This document shows positions 5,060-60,031 of a stretch of 64,000 nt of DNA, piece after piece. This DNA comes from Onchidella celtica (lineage: Eukaryota; Mollusca; Gastropoda; Systellommatophora; Onchidiidae). The notes below the pieces were generated by a model. It worked only from the letters and a program-made list of their open reading frames with translations. It ran no database searches and was not told where the DNA came from. Made by a program: the position numbers and the translations under genes. The stretch's first letter is position 1; each line of letters starts with the position of its first letter. The stretch covers positions 18,892,482 through 18,956,481 of the forward strand of contig OZ007569.1 of assembly GCA_963931925.1 (NCBI GenBank). The letters run 5' to 3'.

Positions 5060-6925
5060 GTTGTTGGATTTGTGCATCAGGCTTCTCGGAATTTTTTGGC
5101 TAACTTGCCAAACTTGTCAAGATTTTTCGGCCAACTTGTCGGACTTGTGTGTCAGTCTTCTCAGGATTTTTTGGCCAACTTGTTGGATTTGTGCGTCAGA
5201 CTTATCGGATTTTTTGGCCTACTTGTCTGACTTGTGCGTCAGACTTGTCAGAATTTTTCAGCCAACTTGTTCGATTTGTTTGTCAGACTTGTCCTAATTG
5301 TTTGGGTCAATTTATCGTACTTATAGGTCAGACTTGTCAACATTTTTTGGCTGACTTGTCAGACTTGTTTGTCAGACCTGTCAAATTGTTTTAGCTAATT
5401 TGTGGGATTTGCAACTTGTTAGATTTATGTGTCAGACTAGTCAAATGTTTTTAGCCAATTCCTCGGACTTGCGCGTCAGACTTGTCAAAACCTTTGTGGG
5501 CAACTTGTTGGACTTGTGCTTCAGACTTGTCAAACTTTTTAGACAACTTGTCGGATGCCGGCATTTTTCAACCAACTTATTGGACTTGTACGTTAAACTT
5601 GTCAAGATTTTTTTGGCCAATTTCTCGGACTTCTGTGTCAAACTTGTCATAATTTTTTGGCCAACCTGTCAGACTTGTCAAATTTTCCTGGGCAACTTTT
5701 TGGATGTATGCGTCGGACTTTTTCAGCCAACTTGTGCAGAATTTTTCTGCCAACTTGTTGATTTGTTTGTTAGATTTGTCAAAATTGTTTGGCCAACTTG
5801 TCAGACTTGTGCGTCCTACTTGTCAAACTTTCCTGAGCAATTTGTTGGACGTATGCGTCAGACTTGTCAAACTTTATTAGTCAACTTGTTGGATTCGACG
5901 AAATTTTTTTCACCCAACTTATTGGACTTGTTGCCAACTTGTTGCAAGCTACTTCTGGGTCAGACTTGTCAGACTTCTTCTGCCAACTTCTTCGATTTGT
6001 TTGTCACTTGTCAAAATTGTTTGGCCAACTTATCGGACTTGCGCGTCAGACTTGTCAATTTTTTTGGGCAAATTTGTCGTGCTTCTGGGTCAGACTTGTG
6101 AAATTTTTTTGGCCAACTTGTTAGACTTGTATGTCAGACTTGTCAAAATTTTTTAGCCAACTCGTCGGACTTATATAATTATTACACAAGTCAAAATTTT
6201 TTGGCCAATTTCTCTGACTTGTATGTCAGACTTGTCAAAAATCTTTTGGACAACTTGTTAGAATATTGCATCAGACTTGTCAAACATTTTTGGACAACTT
6301 GTTGACTTGTACCTCAAACTTGTCAAAATTTTTTAGACAATTTTTTGGAAATTTTCAGCCAAACTATTGGACTAGGGCGTCAAACTTGTCAAAATTTTTT
6401 GAGCCAATTTCTTAGATTTGTGTGTCAGACAACTTCGGCCAACTTGTACTATTTGTTCGTCAGACTTGTCAAATTTTTTTAGCCAACTTATTGGACTTAT
6501 TCGTCAGACTTGACAAAATGTTTTGACCAACTTGACAGACTTGTGCGTCAGACTTGTCAAACTTTACCGGGCAACTTGTTGGACGAAGGCGTCAGACTTG
6601 TCAAAATGTTTTTGTCATCTTGTCAGACTTCTCGGAATTTTCAGACAACTTGTGCTTCAGACTTGTCAGAAATTTTTGCTCAACTTGATCGATTGGTTAG
6701 TCATACTTGTCAAAATTTTTCAGCCACCTTGTCGTACTTCTGGGTCAGACTTGTCGGAATTTTCTGCCAACTTATTGGACTTGTGCGTCAGACTTGTCAA
6801 TTTTTTTATATTATTTTTACTTTTAGAATTTTGCAGCCAACTTATTGGACTTGTGGGTTAAACTTGTCAGAATTTTTCGCCTAACTTGTTTGATTTGTTT
6901 GCCAGAGTCAGACTTATCAAAATTG
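5060..6925. repeat. 43-bp satellite array, block 1 (about 43 copies)
   Basis: Tandem copies built around GGCCAACTTGT, GTGCGTCAGACTTGTC and an A/T run. For example GGCCAAC at 5173 recurs as GGCCTAC at 5216, 43 bases later. Copies are diverged and some are lengthened or shortened. Because 43 is not a multiple of 3, the reading frames cycle and the long open frames across the array are artefacts. It begins just downstream of the Copia 3' LTR. Confidence 0.92.
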
Positions 6926-8164: not shown

Positions 8165-8535
8165 AAAAATATTTTGGCAAACTTGTCGTACTTCTGTGTC
8201 AGACTTGTCAAAATGTTTTGGCCAACTGTCGGACTTGTGCATCGGACTTCAAGGAATATTTTTGGCCAACTTGTCGGACTTGTGGGTCAGGCTTGTGAAA
8301 TTTTTTTTTGGCCAACCAGCCGGTCTTGTGCATCAGACTTGTCAGGATTTTCGGCCAACTTGTTGGACTCGTGCGTCAGACTAGTCAGACTCTTTCGGCC
8401 AAATTGTTGGACTTGTACATCAGACTTGTCGGAATTTTTCACCCAACTTGTTGGACTTGTGCGTTGGACTTGTTGGAATTTTTCAGCCAACTTGTTGGAC
8501 TTATGCATCTTACTTGTCAGTCTTGTGTGGCAGAT
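8165..8535. repeat. 43-bp satellite array, block 2 (about 8-9 copies)
   Basis: Same monomer and orientation as block 1 (CAGACTTGTC, TTTTTGGCCAACTTGTTGGACTTG), with the same 43-bp spacing. Confidence 0.9.
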
Positions 8536-33619: not shown

Positions 33620-34690
33620 ACATACGTCACGAGAAGGTATTACGTGATATGGAAGATCATACTGGGCATAAAACCTGCGCACCACACACGTAAAATAAGC
33701 TTTAAATTATAAAAACAACAACAACAGCATTAACAAACGCGAACCAACTCTTTGATGAGAGAACTCGCCTAGAAATCTTTATTATCGATTCAAGGTCAAC
33801 TTAACACAGTGGCGCTCAAAGTCTTGAAAACTTGGTGGAACATTTGTTGGATGGTGATCGAGATTCCCCCACTTACATTGTGGTTGTCCTCGTAGTTCTC
33901 AGCTACCGGTCCTGATAACTTTTACTGGAAGGATAAACAAACAGGCAGGCATAGTTGTAATGAAATAGATAGATAAAAATACTATGAAATAATAATAGAA
34001 AGAAAAGTCTCAACGACCAAAAAAGACATCTGATTCTTTTAAGTCATTCTAGAAGTTTTGTGTGCCCCCCCCCTTCCTTTAAAAAAAAATTTAAAATTGA
34101 ATTACCTGTTATGCAAAAACAAGGAAACAAACACAAATCAATAAATAAATAACATATTATTCAAACACTGTCATATTTATTGCTATCATTTGATACCCCC
34201 CTCCAGACTTCTTGCTTTAGCTAATAGCGATACAAGTCGTGGTCCCAAAATGGCACACAGGGTTGGAATTTTAACACTACTCTATAATGGCTTGGTGTGA
34301 GACCTATGGGCAGCCAAGAATGCCTCAATTAACCATTTTGCCACATTTCAATGGAGGATATTATTAATTTCAATTTCAAGTTTTGAAACACATTACCCTT
34401 CTTTACTCTACCCCCGATTCCTATGTCGTGGTCCATTTTTTACCCATACTCTACAAAGAGGAAAAAAAGCTGTCACCCCTGATCTATTTCTGGTACGTCC
34501 GCCCAGGGTCACCCCCTCCCCCACCCCCACAAGGAAGCTAAAAATAACACCCTAAGCAACCCCTGCATGTGACCTAGATCTAAACAATGCAGGGATCGTG
34601 GCTTTGTACTGTTTTTATGTCAGACAACACAATGGCAGAAAGAAACATGTTCGCAACTTTGCAAATGTGACTGCATGGCATATGGAGACT
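33620..34690. other. No gene seen
   Basis: AT-rich, with A-runs and one C run. A CAGTGGCGCTCAAAG motif at 33810 looks like a hAT left end but no partner end was found. Confidence 0.4.
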
Positions 34691-37149: not shown

Positions 37150-38325
37150 GCTAAGAGAAACAGTTCATTGTTTAATTTTCTTTTACTACCGTTGCAATAT
37201 TTTGCCTGAAGAAGGTCCTTTGATAGAAATCTCGGGGAACGCAGAAGAAGAAGAAGAAGATAGAAATCTCGTTTTGTCTTTTCGTTTCCTGTACATTTTA
37301 CTATATCGCTTCTGTATTATTTCTTACGCAAGACTTTGCAGCATTCAAGACATTTTGGTCCTGAGCAGGCTCATTCACACTGATCGTTGCGGTACTAAAC
37401 CGTGTGGCAATTCTCGTTGCAAGACGTGCACACATGTCCTTCAAGCGACTTCCATCGAGTGCCCTTTGTCGACGTTCAGCATTACGGAAAGCTTCACTTG
37501 CCATAGTCGCAATCTGGTGTATGCTATCCGCTGTGCCAGGTGTCATATGTTGTACATTGGTGAAACGGGACGTCAGCTTCACACTCGGTTTCGGGAGCAC
37601 CTCCGTGACATTGAAAATCGAAATGGAAAGCCTGTTTCTGTCCATTTTAATCGACCAGACCATGAGCCATCCAACGACATTCAAATTCTGGGGCTCAAGT
37701 CTTGTCACGCAGGCGCTGATGTACGCTTTGAGACCGAACAACAATTAATTTTCCAGCTCGGCACTATCACTCCCCATGGCATCAATGTCCAACATTGCCT
37801 TCGATAATTCCACTGTTGCTAATATCAATATATATATATATATATAAATTTCTTTATTATTATTATTTTCTTTCATTTTTTTTTTTTTTTAAATCTCTTT
37901 TTCTTTTTCTTTTCATTTACTGCGACTCCTGACATTGCGCACCATCCCTGTCTTGTGCTCTGAGGCACTATATGGCGTCTTCATCTTGGTTACTAACCAA
38001 TTGCGTCACTTCCTGCTTCCATGCTTTTGGCGGACGGACGTGCTTTGGTGCTGCTAACGAAGCAAGAACTCGCAGCTAAGTAAACTGGTTCACTTCGTTC
38101 CCGTTGAAGTCTTTTATTGTTCGTTTTTTTCACTTGACAAAGGCGAAAGCCGAAAATTTGTGTATTTTCTGTCTTCTCTTTAGTTTGCTTTGTATTGTTT
38201 GGGTTTTATTTCTCACGCGGGGCATTGCAACATACAACCTTTTCTTTTTGCCCAATTTTGACTTTGCTTATAGCCTTGCTGCGACCCCACAGTTTTTCTG
38301 TGGTTTTTATGATATTTTGTAAATA
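37150..38325 (+). mobile_element. Penelope-like element, 5'-truncated
   Basis: Consists of the linker and GIY-YIG endonuclease coding end (see 37325-37807) and a 0.5-kb 3' region with CACTTGACAAAGGCGAAAGCC and a terminal stretch (AACATACAACCTTTTC...TTTTCTGTGGTTTTTATGAT) that recurs near 27545-27660 and 61500-61570. The reverse transcriptase part is missing. Confidence 0.75.
37325..37807 (+). pseudogene. Penelope-like GIY-YIG endonuclease fragment
   Basis: Open frame to TAA at 37805. It contains the Cys linker CGTKPCGNSRCKTC, then CHSRNLVYAIRC and the GIY-YIG core YIGETGRQLHTRFREHL, and ends ITPHGINVQHCLR. This is the C-terminal endonuclease that cuts target DNA for Penelope-like retroelements. 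The catalytic Tyr, Arg and a downstream Glu (FETEQQL) are present, so this domain is well kept, but with no reverse transcriptase upstream the copy cannot act alone. The N-terminal part of the open frame (37202-37320), including an (GAA)n run, does not look like the family. Confidence 0.85.
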
Positions 38326-38329
38326 TTAG

Positions 38330-39145
38330 GCAAATTAAAGAAACATAATACTCACTGGTGCTATTGGGCAATAAAGCATTGCCACTGCGAAGGGATTCTT
38401 TTGTCTTTTGTATTCATTTACCTCCACAGTGTTACACAGAAAAATCTGTACAGATTTTGAAAGAAAAAGAAAAACGAAAAAAGCTATCATTATCAATCTC
38501 GGAACGTCATTATGATATACAAGAACGTCCAGGAGGGCAAGCACTCCCTTTGCAAAATACTTTCACAACACGTAGAAATACAAAAAAAATCTACAATAGA
38601 ATCATGTTCAGGAAACTATATAAGTAATGCATTTTGCCACCACCAGCCAAATCAACGTGGATTTTCTCGGAAACCGCCTTTTAATTTAAATTTGCTTGGA
38701 AGTTTTGCATGGGCTCATATTTTGCTTTAAGTCTTTTATTTTTTTTTAGACGTTAGACTGATTAGACTTTCTCTCTCTCTCTCTCTCCCTCTCTCTCTCT
38801 CCCTCTCTCTCTTCCTCTGTTTGTGTGTGTTTGTGTGTGTCAGACAGACACACACACACACGAATGCGCTATTCTGCTGTAGAAAACGTATACTGCCTTT
38901 GGGAGAAATAATTAGTCAGTGAGTAGAAATTTCCGATGCAGGACTGATTTAGCTCAGAGAAAAAACCTTACGCACACACAATCATAGAAGAGAGACTGAA
39001 CAACTATAATCAACAAAAGCTTCAATTTCCATCGAAATCACCCATGGCCTTTTCCCCAGCTTCATTACTGGTTTGAGACACTGTGTCACAATTTTTTTAA
39101 CATGACTCTTTCAGACATTTTTTCTTTCTTCCCACCCCCCCTCCC
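38330..39145. other. No gene seen; CT and GT/CA microsatellites
   Basis: (CT)n at 38769-38819 followed by GTGTGT and ACACACAC to 38862. Otherwise unassigned AT-rich sequence. Confidence 0.45.
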
Positions 39146-40445: not shown

Positions 40446-40568
40446 CGGTTCCGTGTTAGGAATGGCTCTGCAAACCATTGCTGGATTCCTAGAAACCTGT
40501 GCCTTCATGCAATTGCTCTCATAGAATCTCAGGTCGTGAAATCGGTAGACTTTTCCTGTACTCAATAT
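40446..40568 (-). CDS. Cystatin-like gene, second domain, continuation exon
   Basis: 123 nt, phase 0 to phase 0 (41 codons), between acceptor CACTACTTCTCCAG and donor GTGAGTAG. The peptide begins ILSTGKVYRFHDLRFY, then SNCMKAQVSRNPAMVC and ends IPNTEP. Placed after the exon at 42252-42428 it reads Q-ILSTG where cystatins have the Q-V-V-A-G hairpin, followed by the alternating strand and a Cys pair 13 residues apart, as for the first cystatin disulfide. The exact inhibitory motif is not kept, so protease inhibition is doubtful. The next exon is uncertain: 39635-39672 (donor GTAAGC) is a weak candidate. The last part of a cystatin fold (second disulfide, PW loop) was not found. Confidence 0.6.
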
Positions 40569-42251: not shown

Positions 42252-42428
42252 CTGCAGGGTAACCGAGCCACCGCCTCTGTACTTGAAGTAGTTGAGATTT
42301 TCTGGGGAATCATTCACATAGTGGTGTTCTACAAACTTCAAGGCTTTTCGAACTCCCCTATCGTCCATACTAACAGGAAATTCACTGCCAGCCATGTTTT
42401 GATCCACGGTGCCAAAAAGAACGTCATT
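42252..42428 (-). CDS. Cystatin-like gene, second domain, N-terminal half
   Basis: 177 nt, phase 0 to phase 0 (59 codons). Starts NDVLFGTVDQN, then a helix-like DDRGVRKALKFVEHHY, NDSPENLNYFKY and ends GGGSVTLQ. The helix followed by a strand ending in Q at the exon border is the layout of the first half of a cystatin domain and of exon 1 of this gene (NDPLVRAAVKGLNDF...ELVQVIASTFE). The acceptor (CATTGTAG) has a modest pyrimidine tract and the donor (GTCTGTTAAG) is weak but has GT. In transcription order it follows the microexon array. I infer a multi-domain cystatin-fold protein; whether it inhibits proteases is unknown. Confidence 0.65.
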
Positions 42429-42804: not shown

Positions 42805-42816
42805 CCCTAACGGTTC
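42805..42816 (-). CDS. Microexon 1 (12 nt, EPLG), last of the array
   Basis: TTTTTTCAG, then GAACCGTTAGGG, then GTAAGT. Both splice borders are intact. Confidence 0.6.
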
Positions 42817-43294
42817 CTGAAAAAATATTAGAAAATATGATTACCATGTCTGTCATGAGATGATAAGTTGCAGCTTAGGAGTTATCACACGGTCAAACCT
42901 TTTGAACAATATTTGTTCAAACTATTCTTCCTGATTTGAAATCCCAAAAATGTTCTTCAGATTATTTTAATGCACTGATCAATTTCCGAAGACAAAGGAA
43001 ACAGATTTCGTGGACTCTATCGGGGTTGACATGCAAAAATGCCATGTCTTATTATCATACAATACTCTACGCTATTACTCTATTGTTAATATAGCTATAA
43101 CTCTAACTTTCATATTAAATCTAATAGAGACTTAGAAAGAAGACAAAAAACTGGGACAAGCAATGAACTACTGAGACAAGGGTTGAGGTAACAATTGTAT
43201 AGTGAGACTGAACAATAATATAAATATATAACATAGCATACATGTCAATATATAAATAGGTACATATGTGTATATTTTATACAAAAGAACTTAC

Positions 43295-43306
43295 CCCAGA
43301 GTCGGG
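43295..43306 (-). CDS. Microexon 2 (12 nt, PDSG)
   Basis: Acceptor TTTTAG, exon CCCGACTCTGGG, donor GTAAGTTC. Branch-like CCTATTAACC lies about 35 nt upstream. Confidence 0.6.
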
Positions 43307-43908
43307 CTAAAATTTTTTTTATAAAACTTTATCAATATGGTTAATAGGTCAATGCACGATAGAACCCTTTCAAAATAGTGTTTGATCAAGGTATACTTCC
43401 AGATTTGAAATCCCAAAAGTATTCTTCAGATCATTTCAATGCACTAATCACTTTCTGAAGGTAAAAGACACAGATTTCGATGACTCTATCGGGGTCGACA
43501 AGTCAAAAGGCCCTGTGTTATTGCGATAGAATAATATGTACTCTTAACTATGGTTAATAGGTCAATCAAAATAATATTTGATCAAACTATACGTTTCTGA
43601 AGACAAAGGACAGAGATTTCGTTCACTTTATCGGGGACAACATGCAAAAACGTCCCATGTTATTGTCACACAATAATCTGAACCATTACTCTATTGACAA
43701 CATATTTATAACTCTAATTTTCATATTAAATCTAAGAGAGAATTACAAAGAAGATAAAACCGAGACAACAAACGGACTAATGAGACAAGGGATGGAGTAA
43801 CAAAGGTATAGTATGACTTAATAATAATGCCAATAAGTAATCTAACACTGATTATTGTTCAATGTGTGTATAGGCACATATGTGTAAATAATACGCAAAA
43901 GAACTTAC

Positions 43909-43920
43909 CTCAGAGTCGGG
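43909..43920 (-). pseudogene. Microexon 3 (12 nt, PDSE), acceptor lost
   Basis: Exon CCCGACTCTGAG with donor GTAAGTTC, but the acceptor dinucleotide reads AT. Probably skipped. Confidence 0.5.
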
Positions 43921-44068
43921 ATAATAATTATGTACCCATATCATTATTATTCTATCTTGATCCATTACTCTAATTTTCATATTAAGTCCAACAATGAGTA
44001 GAAAGAAGACATGCTCAAAACAACAAAACAATGTATATGAAGGTATATACATATGCAAATGAACTTGC

Positions 44069-44080
44069 CCAAAAAGTTCC
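44069..44080 (-). CDS. Microexon 4 (12 nt, GTFW), GC donor
   Basis: Acceptor TTTTTCAGAG offers two AG choices; the second gives GGAACTTTTTGG (12 nt), the first would give 14 nt and break the frame. The donor is GCAAGT, a permitted but weaker GC-AG form. Confidence 0.45.
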
Positions 44081-44552
44081 CTCTGAAAAACTAATATTAC
44101 AAAACTGTGTAAAGGAAAATCAATGAACCAGAATGGGATTCAATATTTCGAGAAGTTGGCTTAGATTGTTGTTGGAAAATCGGTGTCCACTCGAGCCGAA
44201 TACTGTAGGGAAGAGAAAATTCGCGAGCCGAATATTCAGTTTAACGTCGCGAATGAAGGCAAAGCACACATATTTCGGTGACTGTAATAGTCGGGAATCA
44301 AAAATACCCTTTGGTACTGGGACACAATAATGTATACCATTTCTCCACAAATAATATATCCACTGCTGTAATTCATATTACATGTAAGTTCAGTATTGGA
44401 CTAGAAAGAAGTACAAACTAGGACAACAAATAGACTAAAAAAAAACAAGGGTAGAGTAACGAATGTACAGAGTGACTAAATAACTCCACTAATGTGTAAT
44501 ATACATTACAATTCAACATATACATATAGGTATATATACGTAAAGAACTTAC

Positions 44553-44564
44553 TTCGAGCACATG
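44553..44564 (-). CDS. Microexon 5 (12 nt, HVLE)
   Basis: Acceptor TTTTTCAG, exon CATGTGCTCGAA, donor GTAAGT. Sequence unlike the common CCCGACTCTGGG type although splice borders are conserved. Confidence 0.58.
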
Positions 44565-45047
44565 CTGAAAAACAAATATTACAAACCTTTATTAATATGA
44601 TCAATAGGCCTATCATGAGATGATGTTGTGACAGCTAATGAGTCACCATACTACTATTAAATCTTTTAAATAATGCTTCATCAAACTATACTTCCTGATT
44701 TGAAACCCCAAAAATGTTTTTCAGATCATTTTAATACACAAGTCAATTTCCGAAGACAAAGGAAACAGATTTCGTTGACATGCAAAAACGCCATGTCTTA
44801 TTATCAATATCACACGATAATCTACGCTATTACTCTATTGATAATATGTACTATAGCTCTAATTCTCATATTAAATCTAATAGACAATTATAAAGAGGAC
44901 AAAACCGGGACATGAAACAAATTATTGAGACGGGATGGAGTACACAAATGTATAGTGTGACTTAATAATAACATTAATATATAACATAGAATACAGGTCA
45001 ATATATGAATAGGTACATAGATGTATATTATATACAAAAGAACTTAC

Positions 45048-45059
45048 CACAGAGCCGGG
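45048..45059 (-). CDS. Microexon 6 (12 nt, PGSV)
   Basis: Acceptor TTTTTTTAG, exon CCCGGCTCTGTG, donor GTAAGTTC. Confidence 0.6.
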
Positions 45060-45687
45060 CTAAAAAAAAAATAATGCAAAACTTTATCAATATGGATAAC
45101 AGGTCAATGCACGATAAAATCATTCAAAAGAATCTTTGATCAAACTATATTTTTAGATTTGAAAACTCAAAAATATTCTTCAGATCACTTTAATGAACTA
45201 ATCAGTTTCTAAAGGCAAAGGACATAGATCTGAATGACTGTCGGAGTCGACATGTCAAAAGGAGTTATAGAATAATATATACCCTTAACTATGGTTAATA
45301 ATAGGTCAATCAAAATAATGTTTGGTCAAACTATACTTTTTCCGAACACAGAGGGCACAAATTTCGTCCACTCTATTGGGGTTGACATGCCAAAAACCCA
45401 TGTGTTATTATCACACAAAAATTCCACCATTGGTAACTGATAATATACATAAATATAACTCTAATTTTCATATTACATCTAATAGAGAATTAGAAAGAAG
45501 ACAAGACTGGGACAAGCAATGAACTACTGAGACATGAGATGACGTAACAAATGTAGAGAATGATTGGATGATAATAATACTAATACATAACACAGATTAT
45601 AGTTCAATGTTTTTATAGGTATATATGTGTATATTATGGGCGCGTTATAGACGCTATATATATATATAGAAATACAAAAGAACTTAA

Positions 45688-45699
45688 GTGGGGTGCGGG
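45688..45699 (-). pseudogene. Microexon 7 (12 nt, PAPH), donor lost
   Basis: Good acceptor (TTTTTTTTTAG) and CCCGCACCCCAC, but the donor reads TTAAGT. Confidence 0.5.
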
Positions 45700-46439
45700 C
45701 TAAAAAAAAAAAATTACAAAACTTACCTTAGCATGGTTAATAGGTCAATGCATGATTAAACCCTCCAGAATAATGTTTTAATAGTTTTATCAAACTATAC
45801 TTCCTGATTTGAAATCCCAAAGATTTCAATGACTCTATCGGAGTCGATATGTCAAAAGGCCCTGTGTTCTTGTAAACAGAAGATATGTACCCTTACGTAT
45901 GGTTAATAGGTCAGTCAAAATCATGTTTGATCAAACTATACTTTTCAGAAGACAAAGGACACAGATTTCGTTCATTCTATCGTGGTTGACATGCAAAAAC
46001 GCCACGTTTGACTATCACTCAATAATCTATACCATTATTCTATTGATAATATACATAAATACAACTCTAATTTTCATGTTAAATCTAATAGAGAATTAGA
46101 AAAAAGACAATACTGGGACAATCAATGAACTATTGAGATAAGGGTTGAGAATACACTGAGTCCAGCGGGGTTGACATGGAAAAACGTCACGTATTGTTAT
46201 CACACAACATTCATACCATTACTCTATTGATAATATACATATAACTCTAATTTTCTTATTTAAATCTAATAGAGAATTAAAAAGAAGACAAAACCGGGAC
46301 AAGAAACAAACTAATAAGAAAAACGATGGGGTAACAAATGTATAGTGTGACTGAATAATATTACTAATATATAACATAACATACAAGTCCATATATAGGC
46401 CTAAATAGGTAGATGTGTATATATTATTATTATATACAA

Positions 46440-46458
46440 AAGATCTTACCCGAAAAAT
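46440..46458 (-). pseudogene. Unit 8, microexon deleted
   Basis: The unit is present on both sides, but the 12-nt block and the acceptor AG between CTTAC and GAAAAATTAC are missing. Confidence 0.5.
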
Positions 46459-46881
46459 TACAAAACTTTATCTGTATGGTTAATAGGACAATGCATGATT
46501 ACCTTCAAAATAATGTTTGATACTGATAGTGATAGAACGATTCTATCTGATTTGAAATCCCCCCCCCCCCCCCCAAATATTCTTCAGATCATTTTAATGC
46601 AGCAGGCAGTTTCTGAAGGTAAAAGACACAGATTTCAATGACTCTATCGGGGTCGACATGTCAAAAGACCCTTACTCTCTTGATAATATATCCATTACTC
46701 TAACTTTCATATTAAGATTATCAGTGAATTAGAAAGAAAACAGAACCGGAACAATAAACCGACTATTGAGACAAGCTATCGGGTAATGAATATACAGAGT
46801 GACTAAATAAATCTACTACTATGTAACATTAAATTACAGGTCAATGTACACCTATTTATATATATATGCAAAAGAACTTAC

Positions 46882-46893
46882 GTCAACGTTAGT
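46882..46893 (-). CDS. Microexon 9 (12 nt, TNVD)
   Basis: Acceptor TTTTTTCAG, exon ACTAACGTTGAC, donor GTAAGTTC. Confidence 0.58.
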
Positions 46894-47386
46894 CTGAAAA
46901 AAGAAATGTTATAAAACTTTATAAACTTTATTAATAGCGCTATCATGAGATGGTATTGTGATAGCTAACGAATCGTCGAACAACTAAATCTTTTAATAAT
47001 GTTTGGTCAAACTATAATTCCTGATTTGAAATCAGTATTCTTTAGATCATTTTGATACACTCATCAGTTTCCGAAGACAAAGAAAACAGATTTCGTTCAC
47101 TCTATCGGGGTGGACATGGAAAAACGACATGTCTTATTATCAGCATTATCACACAATAATCTACACCATTCCTCTATTGATAGCATGTCTATAACTCTAA
47201 TTTTCATATTAAATCTAATAAAGAATTAGAAAGAAGACAAAATCGGGACAAGAAACAAACTAATAAGAAAAGGGATGGAGTAAAAAATATATAGTGTGAC
47301 TCAACAATAATACTAATATATAAATAAGAATACAGGTCAACATATAAATAGGTACAAATGTGTATATAATATACAAAAGAACTTAC

Positions 47387-47398
47387 ATTAGAATCGGG
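47387..47398 (-). CDS. Microexon 10 (12 nt, PDSN)
   Basis: Acceptor CTTTTTTCTTCTTTAG is the best pyrimidine tract of the array; exon CCCGATTCTAAT, donor GTAAGTTC. Phase 1 would meet TAA here, supporting phase 0. Confidence 0.62.
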
Positions 47399-47885
47399 CT
47401 AAAGAAGAAAAAAGTTAAACAGTTTATCAGTATGGTTAATAGGTGAATGCAAGATTAAATCCTTTAAAATAATGTTTGATCAAACTATACGTTATGATTT
47501 GAAATCCCACAATATTCTTCAGATCATTTCAATGCACTAATCAATTTCTGAAGGTAAAAAAGACACAGATTTCAATGACTTTATCGGGGTTGATTTTACA
47601 GATTTTGTTTAGTCTATCCAGGTTGACATGCAAAAACGCCACGTCTTATTATTACACACTCATTTACACAATTGCTCTATTGACAATATATCTGTAACTC
47701 TAATTTTCATATCAAATCTAACAGAGAATTAGAAAGAAGACAAAACCAGGACAAGAAACAAATGATTGAGACAAGGGATGGAGTAACAAATGTATAGTGT
47801 GACTTAACAATAATATATATAACATCAAATACAGGTCAATATATAAATAGGTACATATCTGTATATTATATCCATGAGAACTTAC

Positions 47886-47897
47886 CCCAGAGCCGGG
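47886..47897 (-). pseudogene. Microexon 11 (12 nt, PGSG), acceptor lost
   Basis: Exon CCCGGCTCTGGG with donor GTAAGTTC, but the acceptor reads AA. Confidence 0.5.
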
Positions 47898-48352
47898 TTA
47901 AAGAAAAAAAATTCCAAAACTTTATCAATTTGGCTAATAGGCGATTGCAGGATCAAATCCTTCAAATAATGTTTGATCAAACTATGCGTTATGATTCGAA
48001 ATCCCACAATATTGTTCAGATCATTTTAAGCACTAATCAGTTTCTGAAGGTAAAACTAAAAGACACAGATTTCAATGACGCTATCGGAATCGACATGTCA
48101 AATGGCTTTGTGTTATTGTCATATTTAACAACGCGTACCACTTCTCTCTTGATAATATATCCATTACTCTAATTTTCATATTAAGACTAACAGTGAATCA
48201 GAAAAAAAGATATAACCGAAACAACTAACCTACTATTGGAACAAGGGATGGGGTAACAAATGTACAGTGTGACTAAATAACTCTACTAATAATATGTAAC
48301 ATTAATTACAAGTCAATATATATAGGCATATATTACATGCAAAAGAACTTAC

Positions 48353-48364
48353 CACAGAGAAGCC
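48353..48364 (-). CDS. Microexon 12 (12 nt, GFSV)
   Basis: Acceptor TTTTTTTCAG, exon GGCTTCTCTGTG, donor GTAAGTTC. Confidence 0.6.
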
Positions 48365-48591
48365 CTGAAAAAAAAAAAAATTACAAAACTTTATAAATAT
48401 TATCAATAGGTCTATCATGAGATGGTATTGTGATAGCTAACGAGTCATCACACGATTAAACCTTTTAAATAATGTTTGATCAAACTATTCTTCCTGTTTT
48501 GAAATCAACATTCTTCATATCATTTTAATACACTGATGAATTTCCGAAGACAAAAGAAACAGATTTCAATCACTCTGTCCAATCGACTTAC

Positions 48592-48600
48592 TCTAGCGCC
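48592..48600 (-). CDS. Microexon 13 (9 nt, GAR)
   Basis: Acceptor TATTTCAG, exon GGCGCTAGA, donor GTAAGT. The only one of 9 nt, yet still a multiple of three. Its unit is shortened (239 bp from microexon 12). Confidence 0.5.
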
Positions 48601-49129
48601 CTGAAATAAATATAATGCAAACTTTATCAATATGGTTAATAGGTCTGTGATGAGATGGTAATATAGTAGCTAGCCAGTCAGTGCACGATTTAGTACTTCA
48701 AACAATGTTTGATTAAACTACATCCTGGTTTGAAATCCCACAATAGTTTTCAGATGCTGTTAATGTACTGCCAAAATTTCTGAGACTAAGGACACACTAT
48801 ATGCCAATTTCATTGGCTGTAGGGATCGACATGGAGAAACACTATTTATTGTTGTGATATAATAATATATACCATTGCTCCATTAATAGCATGTCCATTT
48901 CTCTAATTGTCATAATTATTAAGTTCAAGAGAGAACCAAAAAGAAGAAACAACCGGGACAACACATAAAGTAATGACACGAGGGGTTGGGTAACAAATGT
49001 ACTATGTGACCCAATAATAATAATAATAATAATACATATGCATAAATAGATTACAGGTTAGTGTGTGTATATATATAAATTGTGTGTGATATATATATAT
49101 ATATTATATTCATATGCAAAAGATCGTAC

Positions 49130-49141
49130 CCCAGAGTCGTC
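49130..49141 (-). pseudogene. Microexon 14 (12 nt, DDSG), both borders damaged
   Basis: Exon GACGACTCTGGG, acceptor reads AT, donor reads GTACGA. Confidence 0.45.
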
Positions 49142-49418
49142 ATGAAAAAAAATTATTATAAAACTATATCAGAATAATTTATATATTATCTTTCACGAGA
49201 TTTTTACAAGTTAGCCAACGAGTCAGTGCACGATTAAACCCTTCATACAATTGATTGACCAAACTATGAATCCAGGTTTCAAATCCCAGAATTTTTTTTG
49301 TTTTCAGACCATTTTAATGCACTGATCAGTTTCCGAACACGAAAGACACAGATTTCTTTGACCATGTAAGGGTCGAGATGTAAATACGCCCAGTGTTGTT
49401 GTGATATAATAATATATA

Positions 49419-49625
49419 TCGTCGGTCGATGGCCCTAACCTGCTTAGAACTAGCCTTTCAGGTTGTTGTTGTTGTTGTTACGGGACCGTAGTATTTTAAA
49501 TAGAAAGCTATAGCTGAAAAATGGACACAACTCAGTCTCTTTATCTGGACTATAGTTAAACCACGGTCCCCTTACATCCGTGTCAAAGGTTAGTTTTCAG
49601 GAGGTTCCAACAGGCCGACCAACGA
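49419..49625. mobile_element. Short inverted-repeat element inside a microexon unit
   Basis: TCGTCGGTCG at the left pairs with CGACCAACGA at the right, and TATA flanks both ends. Removing about 210 bp returns the spacing between microexons 14 and 15 to about 430 bp. Confidence 0.55.
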
Positions 49626-49771
49626 TATAATATCATTACGTTACAGATTATATCCATTACCCTAATCTTCGTATTAAGTTCAACAGTAAATGAGAAAGAA
49701 GAAATAATCAGGACAACAAATGGACCAACGAACAAGGAGTGGAGAAACATAATGTATGCTAAAGAACTTAC

Positions 49772-49783
49772 CCCAGGGTCTCT
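49772..49783 (-). CDS. Microexon 15 (12 nt, RDPG)
   Basis: Acceptor ATTTATTTCAG, exon AGAGACCCTGGG, donor GTAAGTTC. Confidence 0.6.
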
Positions 49784-50139
49784 CTGAAATAAATTTTTCA
49801 AAAATACAAAACTTTATAAATATGGTTAACAGATCTTCATGAGATGATGATGTTGCCAGGATTGATGGCAAAGCACACACATTTCGTTGACTGTAATGGT
49901 TGAGAATCAAAAATACCCCATGGTATTGTGATATTACATGTATAATATTTTTATACTATTACTCCACTGATAATATATCCACTGCTCTAATTCATATTTA
50001 GTTCAATGGTGAATTAGAAAGAAGAACTAACTGGGACAACAAATAGACTAAAGAAACAAGGGGTGAAGTAACAAATGTATGTTGTAACTAAATAATATAA
50101 TAATAATAATTTAATAATTTAATAATAATAATAAATAAT

Positions 50140-51684
50140 AATGATAACGTGACTACGTGATAAAAAATTATGAAACATGGTGTACTACTTCAATTTTTTA
50201 TGACAAGTTACGTGGACACCCCCGTTTCGGACAAAATTCAGTCTTTAATATTATTTATTCACCATTTCTATAACAGCGAAATAAGAGACGTATTTGCGTC
50301 AGTAGAATCGAAAAATATGACCGGAAATAGCATTCTACGTCTCCTTTACACATTGCCGGCCGAAAGTCAACTTCATCGAATCTGTGTACTCTGCAAGGAA
50401 TTGTGTTATAACCAAACGATCTATTAGCTTTTCGTCGAATGAGAGTGCCGAAGTGTGCCGTTATGAATGCCACCTAGATCTAGATTACAAACAGTTGAGC
50501 TTGGCACAAGGACAATTTGTTGGATTTATCTTGCCCGTCTCGGCTAGTCTTACTATAATGGAGTTTAAGGGTGAGCATGTAAGCAGCTACAACGTCGTGA
50601 CTATGTGATACAAAAAGTTGAAATTTTCTGTACTGACATAATCTTTTATGATAAATTACGTGGACACACCCATTTGGAAACATTCGACCTTAAGTATTAT
50701 TATATTTAAACTACCATCTAATGAGTCGCAAAAAAAGAGACGCATTTCCGTCTATTGCAATCAAAAAGTATGACCGGAAATTTCATTCCTAGCCTCCTTT
50801 TGCAAATTATTGAACAAAAAGCGATTTATCACATCTGTGTATTCTGCAGGGAACTGTGGTATAATAGTAAGTTTTATTATCTTTATATCGAATGCAAATG
50901 CCGTTACTAATATAACGTAGATCTGGATATACAGTTGTGTTTGGCATAAGATGTATCTTACTCGGGTTGGCCATGATCTTATTATTATAAAAGTGAACTT
51001 TGGAGGCTATGTTAGCCTACCCCCTCCGTTAATACTTAGCCCACACTCTTCAAATTTTACACACGTCGACAGTATCTACATAACCAGGTTTTCGACACAT
51101 AAAATATACGAAATCTCCTGTCCCCGAATTGATCAAAATAGATTTTTTCGGTCATTCTATTTTAATTCGCCATTTTGAGTGTACCGGAAGAATGATACCA
51201 TTTTGACGCGCCGACTGAACGAGAAGTTTGGTTCCGCACCAAGAAACGAAATCGTTCGTAAAACGGGTAATCAAATAAAATAATTCTGTGTGAAATTGTG
51301 GTGTAACTGAAAGTTCTATTAGTCACAGCATGGAATCCAAATGCCGTTTTAATGTAGCCTAGATCTAGATATACGGTTGCGCTTCATCATCATCATTGCC
51401 TTTCTCACCCTGGATCAGGGTATAGGCCACCAACAAACACTTTCCATCCCTCTCTATCATGGGCCAGCCTCTTTACATTATTCCAAGTCTTTCCGCTTCG
51501 TGTCCATTGTCCTTCATTGAATCTACAGGTACAGATGCTCCCCCTTCTCCCAAGATAAAAGACTGATTTAAAGTATTTGCTTGTGTTTCTGTAACTGGTT
51601 TATTTTTACAGGGTGGGTAGTTGGCCCACCGCCCGCTTAGTACATGGAAAATTTGCAAGATATATTTTGCGCGGGTCGGCTAGT
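50140..51684 (+). mobile_element. Helitron-like insertion with internal duplication
   Basis: About 1.5 kb unlike the array, ending GCGCGGGTCGGCTAGT (CTRRT-type terminus with a possible stem to CCGCCCGC upstream). It contains about 430-bp repeats: TTACGTGGACAC.CCC, GAGACG.ATTT, ATGACCGGAAAT, TTCTGCA.GGAA and ACCTAGATCTAGAT recur at 50.2-50.5 and 50.65-50.95 kb, and partly near 51.2-51.4 kb. Confidence 0.5.
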
Positions 51685-51789
51685 AATATAATAATAAAAT
51701 GATAATAATAATAATAATAATAATAGCATAGCGTAGATTACAAATCAATGTATGTAGAGGTTTATATAGATATAATGTATAGAACTTAC

Positions 51790-51801
51790 CCCAAACTTGT
51801 C
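51790..51801 (-). CDS. Microexon 16 (12 nt, DKFG)
   Basis: Acceptor TTTTTTTTCAG, exon GACAAGTTTGGG, donor GTAAGTTC. Confidence 0.6.
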
Positions 51802-51916
51802 CTGAAAAAAAAAAAGAAGATTACAAAACTGTATTAGTATGATTAATAGGTCTATCATGAAAATGGTAATGTGGTAGCTAAGCAGCCAGTGCTCGATTAA
51901 ACCTTTTAAATGATGT

Positions 51917-52620
51917 TGGTTATAATATCATCAATACATTAATAAAACCTATACTTTTATACGCTTGTGAAATCTGGGGATTTGCTGAAGCTTGGCCCAT
52001 TGAGCGAGTACATCTCACATTTCTGAAGACTATTCTAGGTGTAAGAAAAACAACCCCAAATGCTTTTATATATTTAGAATTGGCAGTTTATCATCTAAAA
52101 ATTGACCGACAGGTTAGACTAATGAAATTATGGGTTAAAATATTAGACTTTGACGGCAATAGTACAGTTTAAAAAGTTTACAACCCATTATTATCAGCCA
52201 TAGAAAGCAACACAAGTACAATTAATTGGGCTTCACTGTTGCAGAATATGCTGGAGAAATCTGGATTTGATTACAACTGGGAAAGCCAAAAGGTTGATCA
52301 GACTTGGTTTTTTTTGTCTGAATTTGAACAACGTCTACGTGACAATTTTCAACAAACGTGCCACAGTGATACAGAGCATTTAAGTGAGAATCGGCTATAT
52401 AGACATGATGACTGTTGCTGGCAATTACAAGTTGTATCTTTATTGTAAACTATAGTAAGTAAGTAGTGTATAAATTGAAGCGCGCAGCAGGGAGCGGAGA
52501 GACTGAATGACCGTGCATTTTGTCTGTTTGTTTGTTTGTTTGTTTCTAATGTTTTCAGAGATTGTTTGCATGATTCTTCTGTGTATTTTGAACTGAACTT
52601 GAACTTAAACTTGTTAAACT
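51917..52620 (+). pseudogene. LINE insertion, reverse-transcriptase C-terminal part
   Basis: From about 51930 reads INTLIKPILLYACEIWGF, IERVHLTFLKTILGVRK and ELAVYHLKIDRQVRLMKLW, with one in-frame TAA at 52170-52172. It then continues to INWASLLQNMLEKSGF, LRDNFQQTC and a stop at 52446-52448. This is the C-terminal region of a non-LTR reverse transcriptase protein, 5'-truncated. It sits inside a microexon unit on the opposite strand. Confidence 0.8.
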
Positions 52621-52996
52621 GTTTTTTTTTCTGATTGGAAATCCCAGAACATTTTCCAGACCATTTTAATGCATTCATCAATCCCTGAAGACACAGATTT
52701 TGTTGACAGTATAGTGACAGACACATGCAAAAACGCCCCGTGCTGTTGTAACATAATATATATCATTACTGTATTGATAATATATCCATTACTCTAATTT
52801 TCATATTAAGTCTTACAATTAGCAAGAATGAATAACGAGGACAAGAAACGGTCTAATGAGACATGGAGGTGGGTTGGGGGTGGGGAGGCGGGGGGGGGGG
52901 GTGTTAACAAATGAGCAGTGTGGCTATTTAATAATAATTCTAATACATACTATGGGTCAATAAAAATGTATGCAAAAAACAAAACAAAAAACTTAC

Positions 52997-53008
52997 CCAC
53001 TCTTGTTT
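52997..53008 (-). CDS. Microexon 17 (12 nt, KQEW)
   Basis: Acceptor CATTTATTGCAG, exon AAACAAGAGTGG, donor GTAAGTTT. Confidence 0.58.
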
Positions 53009-53075
53009 CTGCAATAAATGTTACAAAACGTCATCAATATAATTAATTAAATAGGTCTGTTGTGAGATGGTAATG

Positions 53076-53957
53076 GCCCATTCCATGAATGTCAACCAGT
53101 ATGAGAAAATATAAAATTTGAAATATCAAATAAAAAATCCTTGGTTAAACTTCTAAAATGGTTAATTGACAAGAAATTATCAACAAAATGCATTTCATAA
53201 TTTTACCGCATATTTTGTAAGAACCATATTTCATACTGCCAATCAAAAATATTCAATATAATTTGCAGTTTTATGTTTCATAACGAGTAACTAATGTGGT
53301 CAATTTTGAAAAATGTCAAAAAATAACAAGCAAATTCTATTACTGATTTCGGTTTTGACTAGAAAGAATCCAATAGACCTTACTAGATCTAGTGCGGTGT
53401 AACATACGTCACACTTTATCATAAAGCTTTTATCTAGCAATAGGTATTTGAGACAGATCATAACCATATTACTGTAAAATTGTTAAAATCTAAGTTTAAA
53501 TCCAAAATATAATCTTATTCGTGAAAAGGGCACTTGAAAAGTGAAGGTGTAACACGCCACAAGAAAATGTAACACATGCCATAGAACTTTTTGCCAATTT
53601 CATCTAAAAATGTAAGACAGACACAGAATTTGCTACAAGTATTATCTAAACGTTTGGGTAAATTTCTCAGACTACTTTCGCAGAAATTCCAGAAAATATT
53701 ACTAAAACTGGTAAACCACTTTTTGTGAATGTAACGCACGTCACGCAAAGTTGAGCATCATGTTTACTTTTTCCAGCCTTTACGTTTTTTAATTAAAAAT
53801 AACAAAATTGTAGAGTGACCATTTTTTTTTTTTAATCACCAAAAAAGTTTAAATGATAAATATCTCATTTAATGATTCATTTTGGAAGCTGGCGAAAGTA
53901 AACAAAAACTGGTCTTCATGTTATTTTTTATGTAACACACGTAATATCGAATGGGTC
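53076..53957. mobile_element. 882-bp inverted-repeat element with TAATG target duplication
   Basis: Interrupts a unit exactly within GAGATGGTAATGTGGTAG. TAATG is present on both sides (53071-53075 and 53958-53962). Ends GCCCATTC and GAATGGGTC are inverted. Inside, GTAACAC.CGTCAC-like motifs recur (53548, 53570, 53731, 53934). Superfamily not identified; a 5-bp duplication occurs for example in Transib-type elements. Confidence 0.65.
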
Positions 53958-54779
53958 TAATGTGGTAGCCAACTACTCAGTATGCGGTTAACCCTTGCAA
54001 ATGATGTTTGATCTAACTATACATCTTGTTTTGAAATCCCAGAAAGTTATTCACATCATTTTAATGCACTGACAAATTTCTGTACACAGAGGTTGTAGAT
54101 GTCATTGTCTGAAGGGATTGAAAATTATGATATAATATCTACCATTACGACATTATACATTAGTCTAATTTGAAAGAAGAAATTACCCGGGACAACAGAT
54201 GGACTAATGAGACAAGGAGTGGGCGGGGTAACAAAATAATGTCATCCTGAAGAAACTGTTTACAACACTTTATCAATATGGTTAATAGACCTGTAATGAG
54301 ATGGTCATGTGGTAGTCTACCAGTCAATGCACGATTAAACCTTTCAAATAATGTTTGAATGTTTGATCCAAGTATACATCCTGATCTGAAGTCCCATCAG
54401 ATTATTTTAACGCACTGACAAATTTCTGAAGGCTAAGGACACAGATGTCTTTGGTTGAAGTGACCGACATGCAAAAGCAATCTTTGTTAATTGTGATATT
54501 ATAATCTATACCATTTATAACTCCATTAACAATATATACATTAGATTATTCAACAGTGAATTAGAAAGAAAAAATAACAGGGACAAGAAATAGATTCATG
54601 AGACAAGGGGTGGAGTAACAAATCTACAGTGTGACTAAATAATATCAATAGTAATAATAATAATAGTAAATTATTATTATTATTATTACTATATTGATAA
54701 TAATGATATATTATAATAGATTACAAATCAATGCATGTACAAGTAGATATATATTTTATGTATATGCAAAAGAACTTAC

Positions 54780-54791
54780 CCTAGAGCCACT
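54780..54791 (-). CDS. Microexon 18 (12 nt, SGSR)
   Basis: Acceptor ATTTTTTACAG, exon AGTGGCTCTAGG, donor GTAAGTTC. Phase 1 would meet TAG here; phase 0 is open. Confidence 0.6.
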
Positions 54792-55210
54792 CTGTAAAAA
54801 ATGTTACAGAATTATCAACATGATTAACAGATCTGTAGTGAGATGGTAATGTGGTAGTCAATCAGTCAGTGTACTTCTGTCAGATTAAATCACTTAAATA
54901 ATGTTGGACCAGGTTACGCATCGTGATTTGAAATCCAGGAGCATTTTTCACATGATTTAATGCCCTAATCAATTTCTGAAGACTAGGGACATAGACTTCT
55001 TTGACTGTGTAAGGGTCGACATGTAAAAAGGCCCCATGCTGTTGTAATGTAATAATATAGACAAATATGGACCAATGAGACGAGGGGTGAAGTAACAAAT
55101 GTACAGCGTGACTAAATAATAGTAATACTAATATATAATGTCCTTTACATTTGAATTATGTGTAGGTACTTATGTATAATATGCACACACACACACACAC
55201 ACAAAATTAC

Positions 55211-55222
55211 CCAGAGTCCTTC
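55211..55222 (-). pseudogene. Microexon 19 (12 nt, EGLW), acceptor lost
   Basis: Exon GAAGGACTCTGG, acceptor reads AA, donor GTAATT. Confidence 0.45.
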
Positions 55223-55678
55223 TTAAAGAAAACAAAATTACCAAACTTAATCACTATGGTTAATAGGTCTGTCTTGAGATGGTAATGTAGTAGCTAAAAG
55301 ACAGTGTACGAGTAAACCCTCATGTAATAATTAACCAAACTGTGCATCTTGATTTAAAATCCCACAATATTTTTCAAATCCTATTATGTACTGAGTAATT
55401 TCTGAAGACAAAGGACACAGATTTCATTCTCTGTATAGAAGTTGACATGCAAAAACGACCTATGTAATAATCTGCATCACTACTCTGTTGATACTAGATC
55501 CATTACGCTAATTTTCATGTTAAGTTTAATAGTGAATTAGAAAACATAAACGGGATAACAAAAGGACTAATGTGACATGGGAGAATGTGACAAAATATAC
55601 AGGTGGCTAGTTAATAATAATAGCAATATGTAACATGGATCAATGAAAATATATGTGGGAAAAAAAAACAAACCTTAC

Positions 55679-55690
55679 CGGTAAATTTCT
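55679..55690 (-). CDS. Microexon 20 (12 nt, RNLP)
   Basis: Acceptor TTATTTCAG, exon AGAAATTTACCG, donor GTAAGG. Confidence 0.52.
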
Positions 55691-56048
55691 CTGAAATAAA
55701 TAATACAAAACTTCATCAATATAATTAATAGGTCTGTCATGAGATGGTAATGTGGCAGCTAGCTAGTCAGTATGAGATTAAACATTCTAAATAGTGTTTG
55801 ATCGAACTAATACACCCTGTTTTGAAATCCCAGAAAGCTATTCACATCATTTTAATGCACTGACAAATTTCTGTACACAAAGAAGACAGATGTAATTGCC
55901 TCAGGCGATCGACGTGGAAAAACACGCTTTGTTATTGTGATATAATAATATCTACCATTGTACCATTATACATTAATATGCGTATTAAGTTCAGCAGTGA
56001 ATAAAAGAAGAAACAATCGGGGAGTGGTAGGGATAAATGTTATTTAAA

Positions 56049-56297
56049 TTGCTCTTCTGGATTTCCAATTGCAAAGTTGTCTTAACGTGCGCAACGTGCA
56101 CACAGGTCCCTCCGAATTTTTCGTCCTTATCCGGGAAGACTAGGTGCTCGATCCTATCTACAATAAGATCAGGGACAGGAACATATCAGCAAAATCCCCA
56201 AATTCCAACATGCCTGCACCGACCGGGATTCGAACCCGGTACCATCGGCATGAGAGGCGAGCACCTTGTCTCTAGACTACCGTGTCCCCCGTGTGAG
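56049..56297 (-). mobile_element. tRNA-derived SINE, copy 3, in the microexon array
   Basis: Flanked by TATTTAAA (56041-56048 and 56298-56305). Head with B box GGGTTCGAATCCC as its complement near 56223-56240 and the same body as copy 1. It accounts for the long distance between microexons 20 and 21. Confidence 0.88.
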
Positions 56298-56364
56298 TAT
56301 TTAAAATTAATACTAATACATAACATGGGCCAATAAAAAATATATGCACAAAAAATTAAATTAC

Positions 56365-56376
56365 CCACGGCTGACA
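56365..56376 (-). CDS. Microexon 21 (12 nt, CQPW), first of the array
   Basis: Acceptor GTTTTTCAG, exon TGTCAGCCGTGG, donor GTAATT (weaker). In transcription order it would directly follow exon 3. Confidence 0.5.
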
Positions 56377-56779: not shown

Positions 56780-57097
<318 letters not shown>

Positions 57098-57150: not shown

Positions 57151-57246
57151 CTGACCACAGGTAATCCTCCTCCAAGTCTGGAGCTTCTGATTCCTCGGCA
57201 GCCACCGGCGGCTCAACACCCCAACTTCACAAATTTCATTTGCCCT
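57151..57246 (-). CDS. Cystatin-like gene, exon 3
   Basis: 96 nt between a strong acceptor (GATCTTCCCACAG) and donor CAG/GTAAATG. In phase 0, set by exon 2, it reads RANEICEVGVLSRRW...TWRRITCGQ, open throughout with two Cys 24 residues apart. The first Cys falls about where the first cystatin disulfide Cys is expected after the VVRGVKYLFVL strand. A different frame of its second half reads PPVAAEESEAPDLEEDYLW, which looks more like protein but needs a poor internal acceptor (GTTGAG). I prefer phase 0 because it keeps every intron of the gene in the same phase, but the choice is open. Confidence 0.5.
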
Positions 57247-58008: not shown

Positions 58009-58062
58009 CCTGGCGCCTCCGGTCACTTTCAATACGAATAAGTACTTTACACCCCTCACGAC
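58009..58062 (-). CDS. Cystatin-like gene, exon 2 (VVRG segment)
   Basis: 54 nt, phase 0 to phase 0, between acceptor TTGCTCTTTTACTTTTCTGTTAG, the best in the gene, and donor GTATGTTA. It reads VVRGVKYLFVLKVTGGAR. After exon 1 ending in ...ASTFE this gives E-VVRG-VKYLFVL, in the place of the cystatin Q-V-V-A-G hairpin and following strand. Q to E and A to R changes argue against tight papain-type protease inhibition. An intron just before VV is a plausible cystatin exon border. Confidence 0.7.
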
Positions 58063-59806: not shown

Positions 59807-60031
59807 CTCGAAAGTTGAAGCGATGACCTGAACAAGTTCCCAAGGTTGGCGATCCTTTTTGAAGTCGTTGAGGCCTTTAACGGCAGCGCGGACTAATGGG
59901 TCGTTGTCTTTGGCCATGTAAGGACCTTCAGATGACAGAAAGGATCCTCCTATGGGGTATAATATCCTCTGACACGAGATGTAGGGCAGGACCACAGCCA
60001 ATAGTAGGCCTGTCAGTACCTGTGTAGACAT
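59807..60031 (-). CDS. Secreted cystatin-like protein, exon 1
   Basis: 225 nt (75 codons) from the ATG at 60031 to a consensus donor (CGAG/GTGAGTGC), phase 0. A signal peptide is obvious: MSTQVLTGLLLAVVLPYISC, with cleavage likely near SC-QR. Then GGSF, KDNDPLVRAAVKGLNDFKK (helix) and WELVQVIASTFE (strand), which is the order in the first half of a cystatin domain: N-terminal Gly pair, long helix, strand before the Q-V-V-A-G loop. The frame stays open upstream to a TTG at 60040, but the ATG at 60031 puts the signal peptide at the very start. The gene continues through 58009-58062, 57151-57246, the microexons and the exons at 42 and 40 kb, about 19.6 kb on the minus strand. The family is cystatin-like by fold; no precise orthologue recognised. 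Confidence 0.72.

Follow-up and report, generated by a model that had tools for sequence, protein, structure and literature searches.

The 64,000-nt window of Onchidella celtica DNA analysed here (C3:18892482-18956481) contains an array of micro-exons on its minus strand, and the present analysis confirms that the array is real. The array sits between the two halves of a gene, gene A, whose predicted product is a protein of the secreted type, in which a cystatin-like domain (domain 1) is followed by a second, probably cystatin-like one (domain 2). A tandem paralogue with a larger array, gene B, lies upstream of gene A on the same strand. We read gene A as a two-domain secreted-type protein whose linker would be written by a phase-0 micro-exon array, and we give this reading a probability of about 0.82. 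The array itself had been described in a first-pass annotation of the window; the putative identity of the host gene, the larger-array paralogue, the apparent origin of the repeated unit in the gene's own intron and the fast-changing contents of array A are new.

Array A is a series of diverged copies of one unit, each with a short block between an AG acceptor and a GT donor. Within the interval from 56.6 to 42.8 kb of the window, the minus strand has 24 matches to a profile built from 14 intact unit cores, splice signals included, and two of these matches are fragments without a block. The block can be scored in 22 units: it is exactly 12 nt long in 17 of them and 9, 11, 14, 6 and 5 nt long in one unit each. 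Fourteen units are usable, in that they keep AG and GT, have a block length that is a multiple of three and are stop-free in the host frame. None of these 14 blocks contains a stop in phase 0; a shift by one base produces a stop in 1 of 14, and a shift by two bases in 4 of 14. The branch motif, which is located ~35-45 nt upstream, the AG and the GTAAGT are among the best-conserved columns of the unit, as computed on 19 units of array A and 18 of array B. A CATCTCAT...CAGACC element is kept 5' of the branch motif in many units. The first-pass annotation had placed a branch site about 35 nt upstream and had counted about 15 units with usable borders, both in agreement with these results. Its tandem array of about 21 minus-strand units, its predominance of 12-nt blocks with a single 9-nt block and its absence of phase-0 stops likewise stand, although the unit total, the number of 12-nt blocks (19 in that account) and the numbers of stops in the other phases are revised here.

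Could the blocks reflect a chance spacing of splice-like signals? A scan for a pyrimidine-rich AG and a GTAAGT donor that are 3-60 nt apart finds 11 matches in array A (8 of 12 nt and one of 9 nt) and 32 in array B (27 of 12 nt and one of 9 nt). The other 153 kb of the array strand yields 17 matches, none of 12 nt, the 204 kb of the plus strand 11 matches with one of 12 nt, and 60 kb of C11, scanned on both strands, 6 matches with one of 12 nt. Chance AG-N12-GT spacing is rejected because the 12-nt blocks are concentrated in arrays A and B.

The host gene is modelled on the minus strand with three exons on either side of the array. Exon e1 (59807-60031; 72% identical over 75 amino acids in gene B) carries the ATG, a hydrophobic leader and the N-terminal half of domain 1 and ends in phase 0. 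Exon e2 (58009-58062, 54 nt; 94% identical in gene B) covers the VVRG region of domain 1, and exon e3 (57151-57246, 96 nt; 81% identical) completes the domain and is in phase 0 at its 3' end. Beyond the array, exon d1 (42252-42428; 79% identical), with both ends in phase 0, opens domain 2, which continues in exon d2 (40446-40568; 85% identical) and ends in exon d3 (38356-38445; 69% identical). A terminal exon is proposed by eye from the A-B alignment at 33778-33924, from a TAA (33924-33922) to an AATAAA (33783-33778) ~140 nt past it, and its layout is alike in the two genes. All six host exons have lengths that are multiples of three, and every junction is in phase 0. The host reading is stop-free both with all 14 micro-exons (310 amino acids) and with none (255 amino acids), and the linker has 55 residues when all 14 intact micro-exons are included. 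The downstream host exons contain 8 and 10 stops in the other two frames. The leader MSTQVLTGLLLAVVLPYISC, read from the translation of e1 only, is matched in gene B.

Gene A falls within C3:18,926,000-18,953,000 and gene B within about C3:18,961,000-19,011,000. Gene B has all six host exons, 69-94% identical to those of gene A and at distances of 11 to 58 kb from e1 of the latter. Its inter-domain intron spans 36.6 kb and contains 43 profile matches. The block is complete in 40 of them, measuring 12 nt in 39 cases and 9 nt in the other. All 40 full blocks are multiples of three. Thirty-four of the 40 units are usable and six have broken sites or lengths; the intact blocks have stops in 0 of 34 cases in frame, in 8 of 34 after a two-base shift and in 0 of 34 after a one-base shift. 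The unit tree contains ten A-B sister pairs, nine intact and one decayed with a common AT acceptor, and the array is therefore placed before the gene duplication. Among the intact units of gene B, only the initial seven and the final two have partners in array A. The remaining gene B units are mostly PG-type copies (PGSR, PGTR, PGFR, PGSV), such that the array spells a PGxR-like repeat. The first gene B unit (B151208, exon start C3:19003689) has no unequivocal partner in array A. A unit 55690 comes closest to its core, but its flanks cluster with A unit 56376, a mosaic that would fit an exchange of short tracts between units. Groups of near-identical PG-type units at C3:18972872-18989367 (L010 to L012) resemble block duplications, and an 8.4-kb gap separates two successive intact micro-exons of gene B.

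In array A, the intact peptides follow one another on the minus strand as listed here, with the decayed units between them. CQPW (56365-56376) is first, followed by RNLP (55679-55690; nearest gene B exon RNFQ), a decayed 11-nt unit (55211-55221) with a 12-nt gene B counterpart without GT donor, SGSR (54780-54791; SGSW in gene B) and a truncated unit with 6 nt aligned and no donor (54241-54246), the gene B counterpart of which has lost its GT donor. KQEW (52997-53008), DKFG (51790-51801) and RDPG (49772-49783) correspond to KHEW, ENFG and RDPG of gene B. A decayed 12-nt unit with the acceptor AT, present also in gene B (49130-49141), precedes the 9-nt micro-exon GAR (48592-48600), which is matched by the 9-nt GSR of gene B, and GFSV (48353-48364), which is GFSV there too. 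The next units are a decayed 12-nt unit with the acceptor AA (47886-47897), PDSN (47387-47398), TNVD (46882-46893), a truncated unit with 5 nt aligned and no acceptor (46450-46454), a decayed 12-nt unit with the donor TT (45688-45699), PGSV (45048-45059), HVLE (44553-44564), a decayed 14-nt unit with a GC donor (44069-44082) and a decayed 12-nt unit without acceptor (43909-43920). PDSG (43295-43306; PGSV in gene B) and EPLG (42805-42816; VPSG in gene B) close the array. A tRNA-like short interspersed nuclear element with a GGTTCGAATCCCGG motif, recognised by eye, lies between the first two micro-exon units on the minus strand (window ~56170-56300).

It is strongly supported that selection acts on the splicing of the units. 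Rate and parsimony tests were applied to 20 of the 24 A matches and 40 of the 43 B matches, decayed units included, the rest lacking a border. AG and GT together change at 0.25 times the intron rate in array A (20 units, p=3.3e-5) and at 0.26 times that rate in array B (40 units, p=6.4e-5); for donor positions 3-6 the factors are 0.25 and 0.31, respectively. By parsimony, counts of changes as low as that of AG plus GT arise in only 0.34% of random sets of 2+2 intron columns for array A and in 0.42% for array B, and counts as low as that of AG plus GTAAGT in none of 20,000 random 2+6 draws for either array. AG and GT are also unchanged in 17 sister pairs, but these 17 of 22 were chosen as intact, and we do not rely on this result. 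The GC content is 0.53 in 10 micro-exons outside the PG type, 0.31 in the adjacent introns and 0.47 in the host exons. Phase-0 host introns on both sides, a similar array in the paralogue, slowly changing splice sites and an exon-like GC content support the view that the blocks behave as exons. On this point the first-pass annotation, which had interpreted the blocks as frame-neutral four-residue exons, is supported; the optional use and the very many isoforms that it foresaw stay conditional.

The contents of the micro-exons change in a different manner from their borders. The 12-nt contents of gene A change 2.41 times as fast as introns (p=3e-8), and 3.6 and 6.0 times as fast as introns away from splice signals; the set for the latter two rates comprises 12 of the 14 intact A units, without CQPW and the 9-nt unit. 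For the 12 exon columns of gene A, 75 changes are required, whereas the most variable of 50 gap-poor intron windows has 67. The GFSV and TNVD units, for example, have 80% of 362 intron positions in common, but only 3 of 12 exon bases. Separate pair comparisons covered 13 A units, 49 of 78 pairs passing the length filter in one of them; intron identities of poorly aligned pairs are not relied on, as shuffled sequence also gives 0.71. Two unit classes were distinguished, class I with four A and two B units and the PG class with three A and ten B units, and the PG-class exons, as a control, change at the intron rate (0.95-fold and 1.03-fold). In gene B, 6 of 34 intron windows are at least as variable as the exon columns. 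Exons are near neutral in 17 sister pairs (8 A-B and 9 B-B), with changes at 15 of 201 sites versus 6.2% in introns. These results support a faster-than-intron change of contents in array A, for which selection for diverse peptides and replacement of short tracts are candidate causes.

What kind of protein is the likely host of this array? Domain 1 is cystatin-like by profile. The profile was made from genes A and B and a further paralogue, gene C, which is located on the plus strand of C3 and in which one domain and a short terminal exon are seen. Against the PDB, it hits 21 entries at E<=10, and 17 of these carry the name cystatin or cysteine proteinase inhibitor. The lowest E for a whole sequence (7.6e-7, 2mzv_A) combines two stretches that each have E=0.15, and the best single stretch printed is 8sj5_A (E=0.00038). 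Single domain 1 sequences match PF00031 at E=0.00066-0.0055, with the scores shown below the 22.2-bit cut-off, and domain 1 has one cysteine pair. A six-frame search of the 1.14-Gb genome gave two PF00031 matches elsewhere among three candidates scored and did not list gene A. Domain 2 is probably cystatin-like, as judged by eye from its three-exon layout and cysteine pairs, which fit a cystatin. It has no match in Pfam, and its weak match to cystatin D (1rn7, E=0.38) ranks behind an unrelated discoidin (E=0.2). A PDB search with domain 2 alone gave nothing at E<=10, and a profile-profile comparison of the two domains aligned 16 columns with a probability of 1.6, lending no support. The whole gene model, compared with a large protein collection, had 2536 candidates and none at E<=1. 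A genome search with domain 2 places all six of its matches in genes A and B. The host exons change fast between the two genes, with a nonsynonymous rate (dN) of 0.11 and a synonymous rate (dS) of 0.157.

Where does the unit come from? A genome search with one 241-nt unit finds at least 36 matches, 33 in the two C3 arrays and 3 on C11, all counts of this search being lower bounds. A dispersed transposon as the unit is rejected on this distribution. In gene C, the intron after e3 contains a single set of unit pieces, from the upstream part, the core and the downstream part, and no usable 12-nt exon. D, a family member on C11 of which e1 alone is recognised, has upstream and core pieces and no block; a family member on C17 retains the outer parts of the unit but nothing that matches its core; and two further places on C11 have upstream pieces and no core match. 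Inspection for micro-exons away from C3 covered limited stretches of D and of one C17 member. The presence of unit pieces without a usable micro-exon in the matching intron of paralogues leads us to infer that the unit derives from the host gene's own intron and that the segment in these paralogues may represent the ancestral state.

The same intron carries a TATC-type microsatellite, which lies directly 3' of e3 in gene A (window 56862-57096) and occurs in three paralogues (L025 ~2640-2860, L031 ~4920-5180, L044 ~3260-3320). Genes C and the C17 member, like gene A, have a TATC-type repeat after e3, and the L031 member has the repeat and no unit match within the 10 kb examined. The microsatellite is kept at one intron position across the gene family. 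Twelve further places in the genome resemble e1, with E values that range between 1.2e-10 and 0.76 and fall below 0.001 in six cases. Such e1-like first exons are dispersed on C17, C18, C13, C11, C4 and C7, and a leader like M.TQVL..LLLAVVLPYISC is found in the members read for it, L031, L044 and C11.

We propose that a segment of the ancestral intron after e3 gained a 12-nt exon and that this segment was then duplicated in tandem many times to generate the array. Tetrapeptide modules would be spliced into the linker between two inhibitor-like domains. Any subset of the micro-exons could be spliced in without a frame break, because each consists of whole codons in the phase of the host intron. 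The splice sites would be held by selection while the contents diversify, and the resulting linker variation would presumably adjust the spacing, flexibility or recognition between the inhibitor-like domains. Given the selection on splicing, the micro-exons are probably included in mRNA, and their symmetry suggests that their use may vary between transcripts. If all 14 were optional, gene A would allow 2^14 linkers.

Several observations weigh against this proposal. The gene A model is built from DNA alone. The units were found with a profile that contains the splice sites, which may favour units that keep them, and 8 of the 22 gene A units with a block are decayed. No exon indel is seen in the 17 sister pairs versus 2.0 expected, at P=0.14, and the lack of stops is no more than suggestive (P=0.013 for intron composition and 0.09 for exon composition); we rely on neither. 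The contents of gene B change overall at 1.21 times the intron rate, which is not significant (p=0.17). Third codon positions change rapidly as well, and in one set they clearly exceed first and second positions; the acceleration is therefore not clean proof of selection on the peptide. The amino acids of the micro-exons are not conserved between A and B, where 11 of 13 substitutions are nonsynonymous (dN 0.15, dS 0.088; nine pairs), as would also be expected for unused exons. Finally, four decayed 12-nt blocks have a GC content of 0.75, so that GC alone is no marker of use.

These observations have to be set against four other explanations. In a fossil array, one functional micro-exon would have been caught in a local tandem duplication, leaving most copies as skipped passengers in a long intron. 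Broken sites or lengths in 8 of 22 A and 6 of 40 B units, the unconstrained look of the A-B amino-acid changes and the many near copies among later gene B units would fit such a history, which we nevertheless consider unlikely: with broken units counted, the rates at AG/GT and at donor positions 3-6 amount to 0.25-0.31 of that in introns, all 40 full B blocks are multiples of three, and in-frame stops occur in none of the 34 intact B blocks as opposed to 8 after a two-base shift, though a one-base shift gives none either. Far less probable still is that the units serve as RNA or DNA elements, such as recursive-splicing or regulatory sites, with the 12-nt block as a spacer. The CATCTCAT...CAGACC element, conserved across many units, would suit this explanation, but the blocks are multiples of three in the host phase, recursive splice sites would have AG and GT adjacent, and no Rfam family reaches threshold. 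An Rfam element as the unit is rejected for the latter reason.

A different alternative departs from the linker-array reading only in exon use. Every intact micro-exon may always be included, yielding a fixed repetitive linker that in gene B would be largely a PGxR repeat. The strong splice signals, which are alike across units, and the regular PGxR-like repeat of gene B speak for constitutive inclusion, and nothing direct speaks against it; however, symmetric exons with divergent contents fit variation at least equally, and we regard a fixed linker as possible rather than probable. With regard to the fast contents of array A, short-tract replacement or conversion, or a raised mutation rate, might account for them in place of selection for diverse peptides. 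The speed of third codon positions and the mixed affinities of B151208 point in this direction, whereas PG-class exons in similar units change at the intron rate; the chance that such processes explain the contents falls only a little short of even. A further-reaching form of the linker-array reading would see here a non-flatworm, independent combinatorial micro-exon system in which tetrapeptide contents outpace neutral DNA and each individual holds a large set of linker variants, with array A diversified and array B expanded in PGxR. We advance this form tentatively, with the odds somewhat against it.

Elsewhere in the window, a Copia-type retrotransposon occupies 148-4283 on the plus strand and is split over several open frames, with an integrase core and Pol_BBD in 688-2046, where gag-pre-integrase is just under the cut-off, and RVT_2 in 2811-4280. 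Long diverged tandem repeats with 22/44-bp units (ACTTGTCAGGATTTTTTGGCCA-like) lie at 5105-6807 and 8180-8518. An open frame on the plus strand at 37151-37807 has a GIY-YIG match (E=9.3e-5) and may be part of a Penelope-like element.

How does gene A compare with known systems? Its likeness to type 2 and multidomain cystatins includes the profile match of domain 1, the division of each domain into three exons, with one intron directly ahead of a VVxG-like loop, a layout compared with vertebrate cystatin intron positions, and the cysteine pairs of domain 2. It differs from them in that domain 1 stays under the Pfam cut-off and has one cysteine pair and in that domain 2 is unrecognised by Pfam. 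Dscam-type tandem exon arrays hold many homologous exon copies in one intron, with divergent contents and common splice signals, and one large exon is chosen per cluster. Arrays A and B likewise consist of homologous copies with divergent contents in one intron, but their exons have 12 nt and could add up. A literature search over titles and abstract openings found no micro-exon array described in a cystatin or in a mollusc.

The micro-exon genes (MEGs) of schistosomes and tapeworms resemble genes A and B in that they string together very small exons with lengths divisible by three, specify a protein of the secreted type, occur as tandem paralogues and evolve fast. Compared by description only, arrays A and B differ from MEGs in having nearly one exon length, in being copies of one intron segment and in lying between domains. 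According to PMC4350168, MEGs appear to be restricted to flatworms. The counting rule of PMC7653826 asks for a minimum of 7 exons, for micro-exons (<70 nt, with a length divisible by three) to make up half or more of the total, and for a run of at least 4; the DNA-based model of gene A has 21 exons including the proposed terminal exon, 15 micro-exons (14 of the array and e2) and a run of 14, and would be counted under this rule. According to PMC5825161, ~80% of the MEG coding region lies in short symmetric exons of 6-36 bp, a share well above the 18% (A) and 35% (B) that micro-exons contribute to the coding sequence here. We do not file gene A as a schistosome-type MEG because most of its coding region is not micro-exonic. 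SmVAL-6 of Schistosoma mansoni (PMC4350168, PMC4015677) likewise combines a protein domain with a series of symmetric exons of very small size. However, SmVAL-6 is venom-allergen-like and is thought to be a MEG recombinant, whereas the present gene is cystatin-like and its own intron seemingly became the array. Independence from flatworm micro-exon genes would be favoured by the cystatin-like nature of the host and by the unit's local origin.

The locus seems to display the stages of such a transformation side by side, from intron pieces that lack a usable exon in paralogues to the 22 scorable units of gene A and the 40 units of gene B, with dead and living copies together. If the array is used combinatorially, it would allow the spacer that separates two inhibitor-like domains to be varied compactly, in steps of four residues.

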